Source of the DNA: Weissella diestrammenae
GTDB lineage: Bacteria; Bacillota; Bacilli; Lactobacillales; Lactobacillaceae
Assembly (NCBI RefSeq): GCF_014397255.1
Contig: NZ_CP060724.1
Location: 372,001 to 436,000 of the forward strand
Reading direction: 5' to 3'
DNA length: 64,000 nucleotides
Numbering within the stretch: the stretch's first letter is position 1; every line of letters starts with the position of its first letter. A program made the translations under genes and the position numbers. Of this stretch, positions 13,129-31,219 are shown in pieces. Below the pieces are notes generated by a model. The model had not been told where the DNA came from. It saw only the letters and a program-made list of their open reading frames with translations, and did no database searches.

Positions 13129-14691
13129 CTATTTTGCGTATTCAACTGCACGTGATTCGCGAATAACCGTCACTTTGATATGACCTGGATAATCAAGGTC
13201 ATGTTCAATTTGATTTTTAATATCGCGAGCCAATACTGTTGCTTCAACATCAGATAATGCAGCCGGTTCAACCATAACCCGCACTTCGCGACCAGCTTGA
13301 ATTGCAAACGACTTTTCGACACCGTTAAAGCCATTAGCAATACCTTCAAGCTGCTGTAAACGCTGAACATAATTTTCCAGTGATTCTGATCGCGCCCCTG
13401 GTCGAGCTGCCGAAATCGAATCGGCAGCCGCAACCAACACCGCAATAATTGATTCTGGCTCAACATCGCCATGATGTGATGCAATGGCATTAATGACCGT
13501 TGCACGTTCGTGATACTTAGTAGCCAATTCAACCCCTAATTCCACGTGTGACCCATCAACTTCATGGTCTATCGCCTTACCTATATCGTGTAATAATCCT
13601 GCGCGCTTTGCAAGTGTAACATCTTCACCTAACTCGGCAGCCAACATGCCAGTTAGTTTTGCAACTTCAATTGAGTGAACCAAAACATTTTGTCCATAAC
13701 TTGTTCGATAATTCATTCGGCCAACAGTTTTAACCAAATCAGGGTGTAAATTATGGAGTCCCAAATCAAAGACGGTTTGTTCCCCGACTTCACGAATATG
13801 TTCATCCATTTCTTTACGTGCCTTTTCAACCATCTCTTCAATCCGAGCAGGATGAATGCGACCGTCAGAAATTAGTGACTCCAAAGCTCGTTTAGCAATC
13901 TCTCGACGAACAGGATCAAACCCACTTAACACAACTGCTTCTGGTGTGTCATCAATGATTAAATCAATCCCTGTTACCGTTTCAATTGCCCGAATATTGC
14001 GACCTTCACGTCCAATAATCCGGCCTTTCATGTCATCATTAGGTAACGTCACAACGGAAACCGTTGTTTCTGCTACCATATCTGCTGCTGAACGCTGAAT
14101 TGCTTGTACAACTAAATTCTTTGCACGCTTATCAGCTTCGTTAGCGGCCGTTTCTTCACTTTCTTTAATTAACATTGCCCGTTCAGATACGAGTGCTTCC
14201 TTAGTTTCAGTCAAAATCAAGTCTTGCGCATCTGCACGACTCATTCCTGCAACCTCAACCAATTTAGCTTCACGCTCATCGATCAATGTTTCTGCCCGAG
14301 TTTGTTTATCTTTCACACTTTGTTTTTGTTGCTCAATCTTTGTTTCTTTCTCTGAGATACTTTCTTCACGTTTTTGTAACGAAGCATCTTTTCGATCCAA
14401 AACAGACTCACGACTTACCAAGCGTTCTTCTTGCGTTTTAACTTCACGGCGTCGTTCCTGAAGTTCACGTTCAACATTAGCTTGGTATTGTTGGCTTTCA
14501 TCACGCGCTTCAACAAGAGCACTCTTTTTCATCGTCTCTGCTTCAGTCCGTGCTTGATTAGTGATATCTGTAGCGGTTTGGCGTGTCTGCTTTAATTGGT
14601 TCTCAATTTTCGTCTTTGTGAAAACCATACCAGCAACACTACCGATTACAATTGCAACAAGCGACACAAGAATGACCATTGTGATGTTCAT
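13129..14691 (-). CDS. rny: Ribonuclease Y
   Basis: Membrane-bound endoribonuclease that starts bulk mRNA decay in Gram-positive bacteria. The 520-aa product has an N-terminal transmembrane helix (1-24), a long charged coiled coil (about 25-190), a KH domain (about 205-270, [15 protein letters not shown]), and an HD domain with [15 protein letters not shown] and SHHGDVEP, the metal-binding set. Length and order are those of the family. It has its own strong promoter about 75 nt upstream and its own terminator. Confidence 0.97.
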
Positions 14692-14768: not shown

Positions 14769-14797
14769 ATTTTATCGTTTTTACCCGCGCGTGTCAA
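14769..14797 (-). promoter_or_regulatory. Strong promoter of rny
   Basis: Consensus TTGACA (14792-14797), a 17-nt spacer and TAAAAT (14769-14774) on the minus strand, leaving a leader of about 70 nt before the start codon. Confidence 0.8.
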
Positions 14798-14881: not shown

Positions 14882-16414
14882 TTATCGTTGACGCAAATTC
14901 GCTATTACCCCAATGACAACGATTATCAATGGCATCATAACAAAGTAACGACCAACCAAAAAGATAATGATTAGTAGTATGAGCGGTATTAGCCCTGCGA
15001 TGAGACAATCAACCCATAATTGGCGGTGATTAATGCGATGCCATTGGGCTGCTGCGTCAAATAGTTGGCCTAAAGCACCAATCCCGGTAATTTGAGCGGT
15101 AACAAAAGGTAAACTATCCCCGGCTTCAACCACAACTCGTTTTGGCATCTGGCTTGGAATCTGCTGATTCGTTAATAACATCGTCTGTGGGTCACTTAGT
15201 AAATCAACCTGCCGTTTGATTTTTTCTTGCGGACTGACATCTGACACCAACAAATCTGCTGAGTGCAGTAATGAGGTTAGCGCCTGTAAGGCACCTGAAG
15301 TATCCGTCGAAATCACCTGCGTCTTAATTTGGCGGCGAATTAAATCACGATCCATATCAATCATGTCGTAACTCAGAGGCAAACTATAATTCACCACACC
15401 AATCACTTGAACGCTGTCAATGACATAAACGACGGAATTGCCAATTTTTTCAAACGTGTCTAAATATGACGCACTAACGGCATAATTTTTCAACGCTTCT
15501 TTAGCTGACACAACGGCAAAACGTTCTTGATGAATAACGCCCGCAATACCCACTAACTGCATCTTATCTGGCTCTGAAACCGTACTGGGCACCACTTTAT
15601 TTTGTCGCGCATACTGCAAAAACCCTCGTGATAAGGGGGTTGCAAAATTTTCAAGCAAGCCAGCGACAATTCCTGTGACATCATGGTCACTGTACCGATC
15701 ATCAACACTTTTAACTGAATGAATCACCGCGGTGGGTTCCGTTAAAATCCCACTCTTTTCAATCACGATATTTTTAATCTGATTCAATTGATCGAATTTA
15801 GTCCAATCAATTATCTTAATCTGTGCTAATTGTAATTGTTGCTTTAACGCGATTCTCTTTTGTTGGACATGTCGAATTGGCCCGCTCGCATCGCTTGCCA
15901 GCAATACGACTAGCGTACTAACCATTCCCATCAGAAAACTCGTCGTCAAACTAAAGAAAATTGCCGCATAAATGGCTAATAGAATTAACCAATAATTAAG
16001 TGTCCGAATATGCTTCCAATCATCATTTTCAACGACACTCAGTTGTCGTTGTTGAAGGCCTAATATCAGCAGAATACCTACTAATCCCAACAACATACTT
16101 GGAAATGACAGTAATAAATGCCCTGATTGTCGCGTTAGTTCGATATAGATTGTCATTAATGGCCAAACTGCAAAGGCCACCGTCAGTGGCAAAAATAGCG
16201 CGCTCCCGTTAATTTGATGTTGATGATAATTTTGACGCCCCATTTGTAACAGCAACCAGATGATGAGAGCCCCGCTACTGCCATACCCGCCTAAAATTAA
16301 CCATCTGCTAAGATTTGACGATATTTGGGTTTGCACCTGATTGATTGACAGAATACCACTTAATATCGACAACACTGCCATCACCAGAGCGTATCGAAAA
16401 TAATGTACTTTCAT
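14882..16414 (-). CDS. P-type-ATPase-like membrane protein lacking catalytic residues
   Basis: A 510-aa membrane protein with paired N-terminal helices, helices before and after a large cytosolic part, and two C-terminal helices. The cytosolic part follows a P-type ATPase layout but the diagnostic residues are gone: where DKTGTLT should be, the sequence is EKSGILT (residues 219-225), the phosphorylated Asp replaced by Glu; the late SPQEKIKRQV segment matches the SPxxK region before the hinge; and the GDGxND position reads TNQQIP. This implies an ATPase fold without phosphoenzyme chemistry. ATG at 16414 is preferred (AGAGGA upstream) over TTG at 16441. Monocistronic, between rny and the tRNA pair. 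The homology is inferred from motif order, not from a search. Confidence 0.6.
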   Translation of the reverse strand: MKVHYFRYALVMAVLSILSGILSINQVQTQISSNLSRWLILGGYGSSGALIIWLLLQMGRQNYHQHQINGSALFLPLTVAFAVWPLMTIYIELTRQSGHLLLSFPSMLLGLVGILLILGLQQRQLSVVENDDWKHIRTLNYWLILLAIYAAIFFSLTTSFLMGMVSTLVVLLASDASGPIRHVQQKRIALKQQLQLAQIKIIDWTKFDQLNQIKNIVIEKSGILTEPTAVIHSVKSVDDRYSDHDVTGIVAGLLENFATPLSRGFLQYARQNKVVPSTVSEPDKMQLVGIAGVIHQERFAVVSAKEALKNYAVSASYLDTFEKIGNSVVYVIDSVQVIGVVNYSLPLSYDMIDMDRDLIRRQIKTQVISTDTSGALQALTSLLHSADLLVSDVSPQEKIKRQVDLLSDPQTMLLTNQQIPSQMPKRVVVEAGDSLPFVTAQITGIGALGQLFDAAAQWHRINHRQLWVDCLIAGLIPLILLIIIFLVGRYFVMMPLIIVVIGVIANLRQR

Positions 16415-16671
16415 CTTAAAAAATTCCTCTAATCTGTCCAAATAACTTGAATTTTATTTTTTTACTTGTTTCTCTTAGGGCAAATTATATCAGAAAGCAT
16501 CAAATTGAATGCTCGCTTTGACTAATTTTTAAACAATTTTAGCTAAGATAATTGTTTAAAAAACGGATACTCATGCCATGACGTCGCCTGCTTCTGTTCA
16601 GTATGCCTGCCTGGACAAATAATCAATCAGACTTAATTTTCGATTGATACCATAATCAATCCTTTCGATAC

Positions 16672-16696: not shown

Positions 16697-16702
16697 TAAC
16701 AA

Positions 16703-16776
<74 letters not shown>

Positions 16777-16785
16777 ATAATAAAA

Positions 16786-16875
16786 AGGAGAATGTGGGAT
16801 TCGAACCCACGCGCCGGTTTCCCGACCTGACGGTTTTCAAGACCGTTCCCTTCAGCCAGACTTGGGTAATTCTCC
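16786..16875 (-). tRNA. tRNA-Ser (TGA)
   Basis: 90 nt with a long variable arm; the anticodon loop CTTGAAA gives TGA, reading UCA/UCG. Acceptor GGAGAAT/ATTCTCC pairs fully. CCA is not encoded, and the base after the stem is T, so the discriminator reads U73 rather than the usual G73. Confidence 0.93.
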
Positions 16876-17481: not shown

Positions 17482-18873
17482 TTATTGCCGCATATTAACA
17501 TACATATCACGGATGATTTGACGTTTCTGCCAAATCAACACCAAAACAATTGCGAGGTAACTTAAAAATCCAATCACGACATTAGACATTGAGGCGCAAA
17601 TGATAAATAGAACAACAACTATTATTTCTGGTAATGTCTGACTAACAAGCGAAAACTTCATTTTCGTATGCAGATAGTAGTCCCCAAGGATACTTTTGGT
17701 TGCCATCACCACAATAATTGACGCAATCGCCAACATGAGATTGTGATACCCATAAACACTAATTACACCCAGCCCAAAACTGATAGCAAATGACACTAAA
17801 TTAATTTTTACGAGTGCAATTTCCAGCCCTAGAATTTTCATAAATGTTGTATTCAGAATTTCAAATTTTGCCTGAAAAAAAACGGCCGGGAAAATAATCG
17901 CCATATACTGAATGGATGACGTATATTTTGGAATCAAATGATCAATCATAACCCTTAACGGAAAAAAGGCCAACAAACCGCTCAATAGAATTAATTTAAT
18001 TCCCAATTGCAATACCTTAAATCCATTGAGTATTATTTGATGATTCTGGCGATTTAAACTAGGGAAAACAAGCAACGCCAATGACGATATGAACAACATC
18101 ATAATATTTGAAAAGCTTAAAGGTAATGATATTCGGGCAAATGTTGCTGTATCCCACGCTTGTTGAATGAAGAAACGGATAATGCCTATAATGATAATTG
18201 TCGATAAACTAGCGAATAAAATTTTACTACCGCGCCTGAGATGATGCTTAATTGTCTGCCACGGCACTACTACTTGTGGCTTTGAAAATAAGACGTCGCG
18301 CGTCTTAAACAATAAGCTCATCAAGCTGACCAAAATTGCCATCAAATTAGCAATGATTACTGTTTGATACGTGATTTGTTGTACTGCTAGCAATAACAGC
18401 ACCAACCCTAAATTCACGGTGGTACCAAACACATTAATTAATGAAAAGGCAGCAATACGACTAGTCGCCAATAAAATATTATTGGCATAGTTACGTAGAT
18501 TAGTGAGCAACGTCGCAATGCCTAATGCAACGACAATAAAGGCCATATCGGATTTGAAAAATAATTCTCCGATAAGGATCATCAAAACCGCTACAAAAAT
18601 GGTCCAACCACTAAATACTTTGAATTGACTAGCAATACTACGCCGATCAAGCTGTCGATAAGTTAGCCCACCATAATTGACATACATGCCTTCGCTCCAC
18701 CCAAACTGCATTAAGGTGATATAAGACATATAAAACATGTAGATTTGATACAAACCATAATTTTTAACCGAAATCAAATTCGGAATAATTAATAGAATGA
18801 CGAATTGTAAAAGTGCATAAATAAAATTGGGCAATGTCCCGTAAATGAAATTTCGAAAAAATTGCCCTTTCAT
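17482..18873 (-). CDS. Polysaccharide flippase (Wzx / MOP superfamily)
   Basis: Integral membrane protein of 463 aa with about 12-14 hydrophobic segments, typical of Wzx-type flippases that move undecaprenyl-linked oligosaccharides across the membrane. Seen: the N-terminal FRNFIYGTLPNFIYALLQF entry, conserved basic loop residues, and no soluble domain. It starts 4 nt after the preceding glycosyltransferase stop, with AGGAGAATAAAAAT before the ATG, so it belongs to the same operon and would export the glycan built by the upstream enzymes. No polymerase (Wzy) or chain-length regulator is present in the cluster, which fits a short oligosaccharide or a wall-linked unit rather than a long capsule. 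Confidence 0.85.
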   Translation of the reverse strand: MKGQFFRNFIYGTLPNFIYALLQFVILLIIPNLISVKNYGLYQIYMFYMSYITLMQFGWSEGMYVNYGGLTYRQLDRRSIASQFKVFSGWTIFVAVLMILIGELFFKSDMAFIVVALGIATLLTNLRNYANNILLATSRIAAFSLINVFGTTVNLGLVLLLLAVQQITYQTVIIANLMAILVSLMSLLFKTRDVLFSKPQVVVPWQTIKHHLRRGSKILFASLSTIIIIGIIRFFIQQAWDTATFARISLPLSFSNIMMLFISSLALLVFPSLNRQNHQIILNGFKVLQLGIKLILLSGLLAFFPLRVMIDHLIPKYTSSIQYMAIIFPAVFFQAKFEILNTTFMKILGLEIALVKINLVSFAISFGLGVISVYGYHNLMLAIASIIVVMATKSILGDYYLHTKMKFSLVSQTLPEIIVVVLFIICASMSNVVIGFLSYLAIVLVLIWQKRQIIRDMYVNMRQ

Positions 18874-18877
18874 ATTT

Positions 18878-19903
18878 TTATTCTCCTGGTTTTTTTGAAT
18901 TTGAAGTTCTGTATGTCATGAGTACCCACGCTGCGAGACCAATGTGATACCGCAACCAGTATTTCAGAGATACATCACGATGAATTAGCACTGGTATCAC
19001 AGCATTAATAATTTCTTGCCGATATAGCTGCCGATAGGCTTGAAAACTTGAATGTTTGGTTAATTTCATATACTTTAAGAGCTGAATTTTTTCGATCACT
19101 AATCTCGCTTTGGCGGTTCTTAAAGCCACTGGATCCATCAGTGTTAACAAGTCAATCATCCGATGCCACAAAAGGAACCCTTGCCGTCTTCTTTTAGCAT
19201 CAAAGATCAGAAGCTCTTTCTGGCAATGGGTTGCAGATTGCACATGTCGATAATAATCAACTAAGTAGTTGGCTTCGAAATACACAGTTTCAATATGTGT
19301 TAAATAGGTCATCACAAATAGTAAATCTTCGCCTAAAAACATCTCTTGGTCAAAGGTCACATTAAAATCGTCAATCACGTCTCGCCTAAAACATTTAGTC
19401 GTTACACCAAATAACAAAGGTTGTTTCATTATGAAACGCACCATATCGTTTCGACTATACTGACCAGATTTTTTCAAACCACTTTTCTCAATCAGTCGAT
19501 TACTCAAAAAATCAAGCTGAACAATCCCACTTATCACCATTTGCACATTTTCAGACATGTCAGCCAACATTTTTTCAATCAAATTATCGGCTACTGCATC
19601 ATCTGGATCAGCGAAAATAATCAAATCGCCACAAGCATGTGCTAGGCCTTTATTTCGTGCATGACTAACCCCTTGCTCCTCACAAGTAATAACCTGCATA
19701 TTTGAAAATGAATTGGCAAACTCATCAACAATTACCATTGAATCATCAGTTGAGTGATTATCAATAATTAGTAATTCAAAATTAGGCATTGTTTGTCTTG
19801 CAAAGCTTTCCAATGCAATCCGACATTTTTCACCTTGATTATATATCGGCATGATGACACTAACTGTTTGTTTGTTTGTTGCGCATGATAATTCACTTTC
19901 CAT
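18878..19903 (-). CDS. Glycosyltransferase family 2
   Basis: Transfers a sugar from a nucleotide donor to the growing lipid-linked glycan on the cytoplasmic face. The 341-aa product has the GT-A start VSVIMPIYNQGEKCRIALES, the LLIIDNHSTDDS motif, the HARNKGL motif and the metal-binding DPDD (DXD-like), followed by an alpha-helical basic C-terminal half (about 220-335). GAGGGTG precedes the ATG. It sits between the GT32-like enzyme and the flippase in the operon. Donor and acceptor cannot be assigned from sequence. Confidence 0.88.
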   Translation of the reverse strand: MESELSCATNKQTVSVIMPIYNQGEKCRIALESFARQTMPNFELLIIDNHSTDDSMVIVDEFANSFSNMQVITCEEQGVSHARNKGLAHACGDLIIFADPDDAVADNLIEKMLADMSENVQMVISGIVQLDFLSNRLIEKSGLKKSGQYSRNDMVRFIMKQPLLFGVTTKCFRRDVIDDFNVTFDQEMFLGEDLLFVMTYLTHIETVYFEANYLVDYYRHVQSATHCQKELLIFDAKRRRQGFLLWHRMIDLLTLMDPVALRTAKARLVIEKIQLLKYMKLTKHSSFQAYRQLYRQEIINAVIPVLIHRDVSLKYWLRYHIGLAAWVLMTYRTSNSKKPGE

Positions 19904-19925
19904 ATTGGCACCCTCAAATATATCC

Positions 19926-20618
19926 CTATTTATTACGCCACCATTCCAAATAAGTGCGTTTAATCAATGACAGATTCTTCCTTAATCGGTGTATCAATGA
20001 TTGTTTAACCCATGAACCTTCTAAATGATGAATAGCAAATGTATTATCAACCACCTGCTCACTGCCAAGAAAACGATTTGAAACGATATAAGTCGACGGT
20101 AAAATGGTAATCCCTTGAACGACTTGGTATACATTTCGTTTAGACATACCTTTTGCTAAAAGCATTTTAGACCCTAATTTTGGTAAATGCACAAAACTTG
20201 CACCGTTATCATATTCTTTAAGCATCGACCGCAAAAGCTCATCAATAAAAATATGTTCCTTTTCTGCAGCAAAAAATTGAGGCGTATTTATAACGCCCGC
20301 ACTTTCCAAAGTTAAAAGCACCTGACTGTCACCTAAAAGGTCAGGGAGTGGTTTAATCATTTCAACATCAATATCCATACCAATACCACCATGCTGGTAA
20401 ACCATATATAACTTAGCAATATCAGCTGCGAAAGCAAACTTACCTTCTAATATCAGCGCCTTAACAATTGGACATTTATTAAACAAAAAATTCCTGTCAT
20501 TAATTTCAACAATGTTAAAATCTGGAGCAAATTTTTTCCAAGTCGCCAGATAATGCAAAAGGTGCGCCGATTTTTCACTTTGTCCAAACCAAACATAATA
20601 AATTGTTTTTGGTATCAT
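19926..20618 (-). CDS. Glycosyltransferase with DXD sugar-binding region (GT32-like)
   Basis: A 230-aa protein with the start IPKTIYYVWFGQ, the FAFAADIAKLYMVYQHGGIG block and the metal-binding MDIDVE motif, the signature of the Gly_transf_sug (GT32, OCH1/capsular) group. A His-rich end of the catalytic part (AIHHLEGSW) matches the conserved distal histidine of the family. It probably adds a hexose to the lipid-linked glycan. Ribosome site GAAGGTCGGG. A 26-codon frame overlaps its ATG, but there is no sign that it is translated. Confidence 0.85.
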   Translation of the reverse strand: MIPKTIYYVWFGQSEKSAHLLHYLATWKKFAPDFNIVEINDRNFLFNKCPIVKALILEGKFAFAADIAKLYMVYQHGGIGMDIDVEMIKPLPDLLGDSQVLLTLESAGVINTPQFFAAEKEHIFIDELLRSMLKEYDNGASFVHLPKLGSKMLLAKGMSKRNVYQVVQGITILPSTYIVSNRFLGSEQVVDNTFAIHHLEGSWVKQSLIHRLRKNLSLIKRTYLEWWRNK

Positions 20619-20705
20619 GGCTTTTCCCGACCTTCTCTAATTCTGTCTAGCATTAACGACAACAATTCACCATAGTGATTAGTGACTGCCGTCATATAGT
20701 TAAAT

Positions 20706-21566
20706 CTAGCATTTTGTTCGTAATAATAATTGATATACTTTTTTCAATAACCACACAGGCATCATTGTTTTAACCAAATAAATGCCTTGCCTTCTTCGGT
20801 ATTGTCTACGTGTCATCAAAGTATGTGTCAACATATATCGCGATAAATAGGTACTACTTTGAAATAATTGCCAACCTTGTCGCCGACGCAAACTATCTTG
20901 AGTCATTCGCATTTTGACTAGCACCTCGTCCACATTACCAAATACGTGTCCTTGCTCAAAGAGCCGTACCCACAAAAAATAATCCTCATGGTGATATAAA
21001 TCCTGATAGCCACCAACTGCTTCAATCACACTTTTTTTGAAAACAACAGCTGGATGATTGATTGGATTTCGATACACCATCATTTGCCGAATTTCTGTAT
21101 TTGTTACCGGCATCTTTTTTACCAATCCTGTCGATTGACCAAAACAATCAATTTCTTCAATATTGGCAGATAGTATCTCAGTTGCCGGATACGCGACCAG
21201 ATAAGCTAATTGTTTTTCCACGCGCTCTGGAAGCGATATATCGTCGGCATCCATTCGCACAATAAGCTCATTTGTAGCATGTTGTAAGCCATAATTTAGC
21301 GCCGATCCTAGCCCCACGTTATTTTCAAGTTTTAACAATTTGATTCTGCCTTGATGTTGATCTAAAACAGCTTGTACAGTCTCTAGAATTGGTCCATCAA
21401 CAACGATTATAAATTCATCAAACGGTACCGTCTGTGCGAACATACTCGCAATCGCTCGATCGAGAAATTCAGCTTGATCGTTTTGATAGACACTCATCAA
21501 AATCGAATATTTAGGCCAATTAGTCGCTTGCTTTTTTTTATCAGTCGAGGGGTTTTTGTCAGTCAT
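20706..21566 (-). CDS. Glycosyltransferase family 2 (GT-A)
   Basis: A 286-aa enzyme with YSILMSVYQNDQAEFLDRAI, the nucleotide-binding FIIVVDGP, NNVGLGSALNYGL, the DADD metal site, and a C-terminal ED-type HHEDYFLWVRL motif, all intact. It resembles the WcaA/EpsE-type GT2 enzymes that extend the repeat unit after the priming sugar. It lies 20 bp after the priming transferase and is the second gene of the cluster. The sugar specificity is not readable. Confidence 0.88.
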   Translation of the reverse strand: MTDKNPSTDKKKQATNWPKYSILMSVYQNDQAEFLDRAIASMFAQTVPFDEFIIVVDGPILETVQAVLDQHQGRIKLLKLENNVGLGSALNYGLQHATNELIVRMDADDISLPERVEKQLAYLVAYPATEILSANIEEIDCFGQSTGLVKKMPVTNTEIRQMMVYRNPINHPAVVFKKSVIEAVGGYQDLYHHEDYFLWVRLFEQGHVFGNVDEVLVKMRMTQDSLRRRQGWQLFQSSTYLSRYMLTHTLMTRRQYRRRQGIYLVKTMMPVWLLKKVYQLLLRTKC

Positions 21567-21586
21567 TTATCAACTCACTCTCCTAT

Positions 21587-22282
21587 TTACGATTTATCTG
21601 CCTTGATTTTAATATCGGTACGACCAACACTTTGATTACCATGCATCCCCAAAACTTTATAAATCGTAATGAAAAAAATCTTTAAATCAAGATAAAAACT
21701 CAAATGATGGACATACCAAATATTCAATTCAAAGCGATCAGCCCATTGTACTTCTTTACGTCCGTGAACTTGCGCCCAACCAGTCATACCGGGTCGCACG
21801 CTAAGAACTTGTAACTGGTCCTCTGTATACTCTTCAATTGGAAATGGCATGTATGTCAATATGGGCCGAGGCCCAATCAAACTCATATCGCCTTTTAACA
21901 CATTAAAAAATTGTGGTAATTCATCCAAGCTAAACAACCGAATCCACTTGCCAATTGGCGTTAACCTTGGATCTTTATTATCGGAATAGACCCCTTGTAC
22001 TTCAGAATTAAGATACATCGAGCGAAATTTATACATTTTAAAAACGTCACCGCCTTTGGCTAAGCGTTCCTGTTGAAAAATAATTGGTCCACGACTTGTT
22101 AACTTAACTAACGCAGCAACGATTAAAAAAACTGGCGATATAAAAACAATCGCTACAGCTGAAAAACTGACATCAATTAGTCTTTTAAAATATCTACGAT
22201 ACATCCCTTTACCCGCCACTTTTAGATTCAAAAACTTTGCATTTACTCTTCTTCTCACGACTGCTTCACCCATGATTCTCAT
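21587..22282 (-). CDS. Undecaprenyl-phosphate sugar phosphotransferase (priming enzyme)
   Basis: Starts lipid-linked glycan synthesis by moving a sugar-1-phosphate onto undecaprenyl phosphate at the membrane. The 231-aa product is the short form: one N-terminal hydrophobic segment (YRRYFKRLIDVSFSAVAIVFI), then the catalytic domain with FQQERLAKGGDVFKMYKFRS, LDELPQFFNVLKGDMSLIGP, and RPGMTGWAQVHGR. The start is uncertain: the frame opens at 22282 without a clear ribosome site, and an ATG at 22204 would place the membrane segment at the N-terminus as in most homologues. First gene of the glycan operon. Confidence 0.9.
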   Translation of the reverse strand: MRIMGEAVVRRRVNAKFLNLKVAGKGMYRRYFKRLIDVSFSAVAIVFISPVFLIVAALVKLTSRGPIIFQQERLAKGGDVFKMYKFRSMYLNSEVQGVYSDNKDPRLTPIGKWIRLFSLDELPQFFNVLKGDMSLIGPRPILTYMPFPIEEYTEDQLQVLSVRPGMTGWAQVHGRKEVQWADRFELNIWYVHHLSFYLDLKIFFITIYKVLGMHGNQSVGRTDIKIKADKS

Positions 22283-22457: not shown

Positions 22458-24725
22458 TTATAAACGAAGGCGCATCGCGTTAATCGCCACAATAATCGTT
22501 GAAAACGACATCACCACCGCCCCTACCATGGGACTAAGCGTTATACCAATTGGCGCCAATATTCCGGCTGCTAATGGTAACGCGATAACATTATAACCTG
22601 CTCCCCACCAGAGGTTCTGCACAATTTTTCGATTTGATTGCCGAGCTAATTTCAAAAGTGCAATCACATCAATTGGATTTGAGCGCATCAAAACGACATC
22701 GGCGACACTCACTGCGACATCGGTTCCAGAACCAATAGCGATTGATAGATCTGCTGCTGCCAACGAAGGGCCATCGTTCACACCGTCACCGACAAACATC
22801 ACACCACCGTGCTTTTGATATTCATGCAACATTTGTAGTTTATCAGCTGGTTTTAAATCAGCGGCAATCACGTCAATCCCTAATTGATGACCAACACTAT
22901 GTGCAACACTATCATTATCCCCCGTCGCCATAATGGTTACGATTTTCTGTGTATGCAAGTAATCAATTAATTGCAAGGCTTCTTTTTTAATTTGGTCACC
23001 TTGTGCAACCGCAGCAATAATTTGCGTATCATTTTGAACTAAATAACTCATTGTCAAACCATCAATTTTAACAATACCATCTAGTTGCAACTCGCTGACA
23101 GCTGCTCGACTCAACAATGCATACTTGACCCCATCGATAATTCCACTCACACCAGCCCCAGGAATGCCTGTAATATTCGTTGCCTGCGGGATAGTGGCTT
23201 CAAGTTGTTGCGCATATTTTAAAATACCTGACGCCAACGGATGTGAACTTCCCTGCTCCAAGGCAGCCATAATCGCAGTGACCTTTTGTTCTGACTTATC
23301 TGCAGTGGCAATTAATTTCTGGACTTTAAAGACACCCTCCGTTAAGGTTCCTGTCTTGTCTAAAATTGCATATTTAATTTTACCAACCTGTTCTAAAGCG
23401 GTTCGGTTTTGAATAAGTAAGCCATTTTTAGCACCAATCCCAGTTAAACGTGCAACAACCAATGGTACTGCCAATCCTAAAGCATGTGGACACGCAATAA
23501 TCAAAACTGTAATGACCATTGGTAATGCCACATTAATGCCGCGTAATGCTGTCCAGATGATAAGGGTCATCATGGCTACAATTAACGCCGCATAAAATAA
23601 CCAACCAGCAACCCGATCCGCTTTATTTTCAACCGCGGATTTTTGATTTTGTGCTTTGGTCACCATTTGTTTAACTTGTGACACAAAGCCCTCATCTGCA
23701 GCATGTGAGACGCTCATTGTAAACGCAGTCTGACCATTCAATGCGCCACCAACAACTGCATCACCAATTTGCTTTTGGACTAATTTTGTTTCACCAGTTA
23801 GAAGTGACTCATCAATCGCTGGCTGACCAACCGTCACTTGACCATCCAATGGAATCCGTTCATTTTCTTTGACGATAACCAAGTCATTTGTGTGCAATGT
23901 CTCAACTGGGACATCATGCACCATCGTCGCCATTTGCATATGTGCCACGTCTGGTATCAGTTGTGTTAAAGCGTCGACAGCTGACCCAGCTCGCATCACG
24001 GCGTTCATTTCGATCAAATGTCCAATCAACATAATGTCAATTAGGGTAGCCAGTTCCCACATGAAACTCATTGTCATCGTGTGGGGGTGTAAGGTACTTA
24101 ATACCGTACCATACAAGCTATAACCAAAAGCCACCGTAATGCCCATACTAATTAGGGTCATCATTGCCGGCTTTTTGGCTGATAATTCACCAACTGCACC
24201 TTGGTAAAAAGGCGCCCCACCATAAATCAAAATGATCGCCCCAATTAACATGACTAGCCATGATTGATAAGGCAATCCTTCAATCATAAATGGTAAATGA
24301 ACGCCCATCATCGGTGACATCAAAATAATCGGAATCGTCAAAATCAATGAAACGATAAGCTTCCGTTTCATATTCCCCATATGCATCATATGACCACCAT
24401 GCATCATTTGATCGTCGTGTCCGGCCCCCATATCATGCATGTGATGTCCCATCGACATATTTGAATGGTTCATTGCCATCTCCATATGGTCGTGATGTGC
24501 ACTCATCGTAGGTTCTGTCATCTTCATCGGCTGATCGTCATGCGACTCAGTCATTGATGCCATGTGATTTGCATGGTGCTCATCATGCGCCATAGTCATT
24601 GGCTGATCAGACTTATCAGTGGCTGACATCATCATCGAATCCGACATATTCATCTGTTGTTCATCAATTACTGGCTCATTATCATGTGCATGCTGCATTG
24701 TCGGTTGCTTACTTTTTTCTGCCAT
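22458..24725 (-). CDS. copB: Copper-exporting P1B-type ATPase, CopB type
   Basis: Exports copper or silver across the membrane with ATP. The 755-aa product starts with about 125 residues extremely rich in His, Met and Asp (repeated MxxxH and HHxH patterns), a copper-collecting tail typical of CopB, instead of CxxC domains. Then: eight hydrophobic segments, actuator TGE in ESLLTGETKL, the transmembrane metal site CPH (CPHALGLAVP), phosphorylation site DKTGTLTEG, HP locus (SSHPLASGI), and GDGVNDGPSLAAADL. All are intact. ATG at 24725 has GGGAG upstream; a longer frame to 24740 does not. No copY, copZ or CsoR gene and no TACANNTGTA operator is visible nearby, so regulation is unclear. Confidence 0.93.
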   Translation of the reverse strand: MAEKSKQPTMQHAHDNEPVIDEQQMNMSDSMMMSATDKSDQPMTMAHDEHHANHMASMTESHDDQPMKMTEPTMSAHHDHMEMAMNHSNMSMGHHMHDMGAGHDDQMMHGGHMMHMGNMKRKLIVSLILTIPIILMSPMMGVHLPFMIEGLPYQSWLVMLIGAIILIYGGAPFYQGAVGELSAKKPAMMTLISMGITVAFGYSLYGTVLSTLHPHTMTMSFMWELATLIDIMLIGHLIEMNAVMRAGSAVDALTQLIPDVAHMQMATMVHDVPVETLHTNDLVIVKENERIPLDGQVTVGQPAIDESLLTGETKLVQKQIGDAVVGGALNGQTAFTMSVSHAADEGFVSQVKQMVTKAQNQKSAVENKADRVAGWLFYAALIVAMMTLIIWTALRGINVALPMVITVLIIACPHALGLAVPLVVARLTGIGAKNGLLIQNRTALEQVGKIKYAILDKTGTLTEGVFKVQKLIATADKSEQKVTAIMAALEQGSSHPLASGILKYAQQLEATIPQATNITGIPGAGVSGIIDGVKYALLSRAAVSELQLDGIVKIDGLTMSYLVQNDTQIIAAVAQGDQIKKEALQLIDYLHTQKIVTIMATGDNDSVAHSVGHQLGIDVIAADLKPADKLQMLHEYQKHGGVMFVGDGVNDGPSLAAADLSIAIGSGTDVAVSVADVVLMRSNPIDVIALLKLARQSNRKIVQNLWWGAGYNVIALPLAAGILAPIGITLSPMVGAVVMSFSTIIVAINAMRLRL

Positions 24726-24819
24726 TTTACCCACTCCCATCTTGCTATCTACTTAATTTAATTGTACCATTCTCAAAATAAAGCGCTTAGTTCACAGATT
24801 GTGATTTAAAAAAAGGAAA

Positions 24820-25365: not shown

Positions 25366-26135
25366 TCAGCGAGTTAAGTAATTTTGATAATCATCAGTAT
25401 GCAATAACCGATTCGCGTTTGCCACCCGATCGGCACTCGGTTCTGCTACACCAGCCAACGCATAATCACGATTTAATGCCTCCCATTTATATTGTCCCAT
25501 CGTATGATATGGCAACACCTCTACCCGGTCAACATTTTTCAATGTTTGAATGAAAGCGTCTAGTTCAATTAAATCCTCATCAAAATCAGATAATGTCGGT
25601 ACTAAAACATGACGAATCCAAACTGGTTGCTGCTGATCACTCAAATATCTGGCTAAATCTAAAATGTTATCATTACGCCAACCCGTTTCTTTTTTATGAC
25701 GCTGGTTATTGATTTCCTTAATATCCAGTAGAATTAAATCCGTCACTGCTAACAACTTTTCAAATTGTACCAACCAATCAGACCGTCTGGAGAATGGTTG
25801 ACCGGAAGTATCAAGCGTCGTGTGAATCCCTCGTTGTTTAGCTTTAATAAATAAATCAATAACAAAATCCATCTGTAACAATGCTTCGCCACCTGAAATC
25901 GTAACCCCCCACGTTCACCCCAGTACGCTCGGTAGCGACAAGCTTCATCAAGTAATTCATTGGCCGTCATTTCTTGCATCGTATCAGTCGTTAAATCCCA
26001 TGTATCAGGATTATGACAAAATTGGCAACGCATGCGACAACCCTGTAAAAACGCAACAAATCGAATACCAGGACCATCAAAGGTTGCAAAATTTTCAGTT
26101 GAATAGACCCGACCAATCAGGTTTGGTTCTGTCAT
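25366..26135 (-). pseudogene. pflA: Pyruvate formate-lyase activating enzyme, frameshifted
   Basis: Radical SAM enzyme that installs the glycyl radical on PflB. The N-terminal part (from ATG 26135, after AAAGGG) carries GPGIRFVAFLQGCRMRCQFC, which holds the CxxxCxxC cluster motif, and runs to YWGERGG. The frame then breaks at a run of six G's (C's at 25905-25910 on the plus strand); the rest (LLQMDFVIDLFIKAKQRGIHTT... to NYLTR) continues in the next frame. A seventh G would restore VTISGGEAL and a normal 256-aa protein. As read, the SAM-binding GGE motif falls in the wrong frame and the product is inactive. It lies directly after pflB, the usual order. Either a real inactivating deletion, slippage in the G run, or a sequencing error. 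Confidence 0.85.
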
Positions 26136-26158
26136 GTTCACCCTTTCATACCATCCAA

Positions 26159-30775: not shown

Positions 30776-31219
30776 TTACATCACCATTTGAAAGGCACGT
30801 CGCACTTGTTTCATAAAGTCCTCAATCAACCGATCTTGATCTTGTTCAGATTGTTCAAAAACTGGCAAATCAACCGTTTGTTGCTCAACATTCAAAGCAT
30901 TCGCCATCACAATCGTAGCCTCATAATATTGATGGAAGGTATTGACCAATGAGCCATGCACACCAATCAAACGAACTGGTGCCTTTAAATCGTTTAACGC
31001 TTGGTCGGCATTTTTATAAACTGCAACAACATCATCAAACTCTGCTGAAATTTCTTCAAATTCAGCTTTTGGTAACGCTTTGACACGGTCCTCATCAATT
31101 GCTGATCGTAGCTTCTCAAAATAATCAGCAACGGCTGTCCCAGCATCCTCTGTCGTTTGAATAATTTGTGACAACTTCAACGCATAATCGCGTGGATTTG
31201 CAAATTGCTTTTTTACCAT
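30776..31219 (-). CDS. Conserved-looking protein of unknown function
   Basis: A 147-aa soluble protein with no signal or membrane segment, mostly helical and acidic (many Glu, Asp and Gln). Nothing in it matches a motif I know; VRLIGVHGSLVNTFHQYYEA in the middle is the most distinctive stretch. TTGAGGAG lies 9 nt before the ATG, and the stop is 2 bp from the tex start. The close coupling with tex suggests a shared role in RNA or stress biology, which is inference only. Confidence 0.8.
   Translation of the reverse strand: MVKKQFANPRDYALKLSQIIQTTEDAGTAVADYFEKLRSAIDEDRVKALPKAEFEEISAEFDDVVAVYKNADQALNDLKAPVRLIGVHGSLVNTFHQYYEATIVMANALNVEQQTVDLPVFEQSEQDQDRLIEDFMKQVRRAFQMVM

Follow-up and report, generated by a model that had tools for sequence, protein, structure and literature searches.

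A putative P-type pseudo-ATPase of CopB descent, encoded next to rny and retained by selection throughout the genus Weissella

The DNA analysed here, referred to as the window, is a stretch of 64,000 nucleotides from contig NZ_CP060724.1 of Weissella diestrammenae. It contains a gene for a P-type ATPase homologue, which is followed directly by rny, the gene for RNase Y, and is preceded by two tRNA genes and, further upstream, by an intact gene for a CopB-type ATPase (Table 1). The initial annotation described the first of these genes as an intact frame of 510 codons with a good ribosome-binding site, and both features were recovered. Between copB and the tRNA genes lies a group of surface-polysaccharide genes (17482-22282), whose members were named from their sequences as flippase-like, glycosyltransferase-like and sugar-transferase-like; copB is close to surface-polysaccharide genes in several other genomes as well. 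Elsewhere in the window, the pflA gene for the PFL-activating enzyme (25366-26141) is divided between two reading frames, with the break at about 25902-25908, by a frameshift or a sequencing error; the copy in L036 is intact (265 aa).

Table 1. Positions in the window of the putative pseudo-ATPase gene, its altered motifs and its neighbours
Feature	Position	Strand	Remarks
Putative pseudo-P-type ATPase gene, 510 aa	14882..16414	-	ATG at 16414, stop at 14882; 510 codons, intact frame
Ribosome-binding site AGAGGA of the pseudo-ATPase gene	16425..16430	-	10 bases before the ATG; read from sequence
Extended -10 promoter element TGATATAAT of the pseudo-ATPase gene	16484..16492	-	TGnTATAAT type; read from sequence
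Short loop, approximately residues 121-136	16007..16054	-	In place of the TGE-bearing actuator domain, which is absent
DASGP, residues 175-179	15878..15892	-	At the position of the CopB M4 CPH metal motif; group consensus DPRWP
EKSGILT, residues 219-225	15740..15760	-	Phosphorylation loop, originally DKTGTLT; invariant (28/28) are E, K, G, L and T
DTSG, residues 371-374	15293..15304	-	Replaces TGDN; D and G in 28/28
SPQEK, residues 394-398	15221..15235	-	P-domain Lys present in 26/28
TNQ, residues 415-417	15164..15172	-	Replaces GDGxND; T in 28/28, N in 26/28, Q in 26/28
rny (RNase Y)	13129..14691	-	Directly downstream of the pseudo-ATPase gene, same strand in 28/28 genomes
rny promoter TTGACA-17-TAAAAT	14769..14797	-	Counterpart in all 28 genomes
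tRNA-Met and tRNA-Ser genes	16702..16875	-	Just upstream of the pseudo-ATPase gene
Intact CopB-type ATPase gene	22458..24740	-	

A Pfam search with the window protein gave no P-type domain. Profile comparisons, by which both common descent with the P-type ATPase superfamily and its domain order were found, place the protein among the CopB-type ATPases and not in an unrelated membrane family. When the family of homologues was compared with an alignment of Weissella CopB proteins in hhalign, 493 columns were matched with a probability of 99.9% (E 2.8e-34), and the one large gap in this alignment covers the actuator domain. The best solved relatives in a profile search of the PDB were the P and N domains of CopB (3sky/3skx; E 1.8e-21). 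The NCBIfam model for heavy-metal P-type ATPases (TIGR01525) matched the single window sequence with an E value of 2.8e-14, far below the bit cut-off of the model, and was matched by all 23 aligned orthologues. The hydropathy profile, in which six hydrophobic segments precede residue 175 and a single stretch lies beyond residue 470, fits a P1B ATPase from which the actuator domain has been removed. AlphaFold models of the full length and of the cytosolic part from a two-sequence alignment (pLDDT 39 and 37) were too poor for fold placement, and in searches of PHROGs and PADLOC the protein matched no phage or defence protein. Judged by the profile comparisons, the 510-residue protein is a descendant of the CopB-type (P1B) P-type ATPases.

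P-type pumps require the Asp of the phosphorylation site, Mg2+ binding involving the GDGxND motif, and TGE-driven dephosphorylation. The phosphorylated Asp is replaced by Glu in all 28 orthologues, encoded by GAA in 24 and GAG in four of them and nowhere by an Asp codon, and the second Thr of DKTGT has become Ile, Val or Leu. The actuator domain with its TGE motif is absent in all 28, GDGVND has changed to T-N-Q and TGDN to x-x-D-T. Thus, the two changes on which the initial annotation was built, the Asp-to-Glu replacement in DKTGTLT (EKSGILT in the window protein) and the loss of the GDGxND hinge (TNQQIP, residues 415-420), recur across the genus. The losses extend beyond those two changes. 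Besides the missing actuator domain, the CPx motif of M4 is lost, with Asp in 27 sequences and Glu in one at the position of the Cys, and in the N domain the HP motif is without its His and GxG has no conserved first Gly. All these motifs are retained in the 16 full-length Weissella CopB proteins, and the intact CopB in the window has CPH, TGE, DKTGTLT, TGD and GDGVND. Since the nucleophile, the Mg2+ ligand and the dephosphorylation motif are all gone, the protein would be unable to autophosphorylate or to run the E1-E2 cycle, and should have no means of pumping by the established mechanism. Preservation of the membrane core and of the pocket would be compatible with a protein that still moves something, either as a passive channel or as a transporter in which Glu has altered the chemistry; however, the actuator domain, the Mg2+ motif and conserved metal ligands are all missing, and such residual transport is improbable. 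A role as a metal sensor, raised in the initial annotation, is also unlikely, because CPH has been lost and the alignment contains no conserved column of Cys or His; this suggestion was dropped.

A full-length homologue with an open frame was found in all 28 Weissella genomes. In 301 genomes from the family and 198 from the order that were searched with profiles, there was no full-length match outside the genus; the matches listed outside Weissella cover approximately positions 120-519 and lie nearly all within frames of normal pump length. Genome contigs were scanned twice, the first scan giving no match and the second a single metagenome-assembled copy (L058). A plasmid search with the protein returned only partial matches, to ordinary ATPases, and the other DNA of the window had no plasmid match. 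The dN/dS ratio of the gene is 0.04-0.15 in 14 of 15 genome pairs and reaches 0.25 in the remaining, most diverged one; as dS exceeds 1 and is saturated in several of the wider pairs, the close pairs, with ratios of about 0.05, carry the weight of this estimate. In shared genome pairs, the ratio is 0.025-0.037 for full-length copB and 0.01-0.09 for rny, and a pair of truncated copB genes (L033/L034) is looser with 0.17. Thus, the constraint on the gene is close to that on working genes, and its product therefore probably does another job. Sequence change has nevertheless been rapid: the median identity to the window copy is 33%, versus 55% for copB and 84% for rny. This could be taken to mean that the gene is in decay or that the frame is an artefact, but with a frame that is open in all 28 genomes, the low dN/dS in close pairs and the presence of invariant residues, that explanation is hardly credible, in agreement with the earlier view that the gene is not decaying. 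Conservation is concentrated at the former catalytic columns, 12 of which (out of 22) are conserved in at least 26 of the 28 sequences, as compared with 26 of 488 columns elsewhere (p 2e-9); these 12 are among the 38 most conserved columns. The catalytic parts are lost in all orthologues and the sequences are under purifying selection, as is expected of a pseudoenzyme, which argues that the family is a pseudo-pump retained by selection genus-wide, as far as sequences can tell.

In a phylogenetic tree, the family forms one clade (support 100/100) on a long branch and groups with CopB homologues of a sister genus (g36), which is probably Periweissella. These homologues are also the only proteins outside the family that contain a YSDxDIL signature, within the set that was compared. 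In the sample of five g36 genomes, the copies are graded: two look intact, one has CPHALKLA and another SPH, and one is without the CPx and TGE motifs and retains DKTGTLT and GDGQND. A recent tandem duplication of the neighbouring CopB is disfavoured by the tree, and joining of the family to the Weissella CopB clade was rejected in an AU test (p 0.018), a result that is weakened by the long branches. In seven other genomes, the first large gene upstream codes for full-length CopB, and the pseudo-ATPase might be conceived as an inactive paralogue that modulates the genuine pump. However, CopB is not adjacent in most genomes, the family falls outside the Weissella CopB clade, and four genomes without a CopB-type ATPase above 40% identity keep the pseudo-ATPase gene, two of which (G011 and G019) do not even have a truncated neighbour; modulation of CopB is, therefore, very unlikely. 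In three genomes (G012, G006 and G009), the CopB encoded beside the pseudo-ATPase gene (L032:6593-8305, L033:7454-8788 and L034:10746-12083) has lost CPx and most of the actuator-domain region and retains DKTGTLT (DKTETLT in L032), TGDND and GDGxND; apparently, this is a second pump in decay.

The pseudo-ATPase gene and rny are separated by 91-281 bp and lie on the same strand in all 28 genomes, while the gene upstream of the former and the gene downstream of the latter vary. RNase Y is a membrane-anchored enzyme, and the protein encoded here has the N-terminal region of this type (PF12072). These observations point to RNase Y as the best lead for a partner, albeit a weak one, with the protein positioning or tuning the membrane-bound RNase. 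However, rny has its own TTGACA/TTGACT-17-TAAAAT-like promoter in all 28 genomes, as the initial annotation had assumed in assigning separate promoters to the two genes, and a terminator-like hairpin follows the pseudo-ATPase gene in 21 of 28. Because of this promoter and the hairpin in between, the two genes look like separate units, and the link to RNase Y is a lead only. Moreover, the upstream tRNA-Ser/tRNA-Met pair is likewise conserved, being found near the gene in all 11 other loci scanned, so that the gene order may simply be stable. Nor does the absence of YaaT give a special hint, as only 2 of the 40 genera sampled from the family were found to have this protein. Altogether, partnership with RNase Y is unlikely, though less so than modulation of CopB. 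The idea that the protein replaces YaaT as the missing Y-complex protein was rejected, given that most of the family lacks YaaT and that all 28 genomes encode a YlbF-family protein. A 147-aa protein encoded next to tex (30776-31219), which has homologues beside tex in many neighbouring genomes, was considered as a YlbF/YmcA homologue and discarded, since it has no Pfam match. In many species (e.g., L043 and L051), tRNA-Ser is followed by a hairpin and T-run a short distance ahead of the start of the pseudo-ATPase gene, and this gene may, therefore, be expressed there by read-through from the tRNA genes.

Members of enzyme families that have lost activity often turn into regulators. A regulatory role, reached by exclusion, is the most likely one for this protein, and we consider it probable that it is a non-pumping regulatory or binding protein maintained by selection; of the roles proposed in the initial annotation, it may have that of a regulator, a scaffold or a lipid sensor. 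In this scenario, a CopB-type copper-pump gene would have lost pumping no later than the base of Weissella and would then have been kept for another job. The product would probably be a membrane protein that has about eight helices and does not transport, with the P/N-like cytosolic domain as a binding module. The clustering of conserved residues around the former pocket suggests continued use of this pocket, although it could instead reflect fold stability. Glu219, Lys220, Asp371, Lys398 and Thr415-Asn416-Gln417 may hold the former phosphorylation pocket in one fixed state, with Glu219 perhaps standing in for Asp-phosphate, or may let it bind a ligand, and the fixed or ligand-bound state might then act on a membrane partner. 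This detail of a fixed pocket is tentative, and rather less probable than the general role. Its boldest extension, i.e., a pseudo-P-type ATPase that is locked by Glu in a phosphorylated-like state and, embedded in the membrane, regulates RNase Y and thereby mRNA decay throughout the genus, is decidedly doubtful.

A search of the open-access literature yielded no bacterial P-type ATPase that is conserved in a dead state and no described bacterial pseudo-P-type ATPase. A dead pump has been retained here by an entire genus and the probable sister genus has working and partly decayed relatives, and the step from pump to non-pump is therefore open to study. The family is also a warning against automatic annotation, by which the protein would be labelled a metal pump.

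Among known systems, the CopB-type P1B ATPases, i.e., CopB of the Lactobacillaceae and the domains solved in 3sky/3skx, share with the protein the order of the helices, the order of the P and N domains and the spacing of the motifs, whereas the actuator domain, DKTGT, GDGxND, CPH and the His/Met-rich N terminus of these pumps are all lacking in it. The CopB homologues of g36 (L073-L077) have the YSDxDIL signature and the grouping in the tree in common with it, but they are full-length proteins of 710-750 aa that keep DKTGTLT and GDGxND, and their genes lie by that for a ROK-type kinase (in two genomes also by pyrH-frr), away from rny. In humans, TMEM94/ERMA has a P-type layout without TGES, and whether it is an ATPase is a matter of dispute (PMC12134183, PMC13322241). 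By analogy, it resembles the Weissella protein in combining a P-type layout with the loss of TGES, but it is eukaryotic, has ten helices and keeps both an A-like domain and Asp417.
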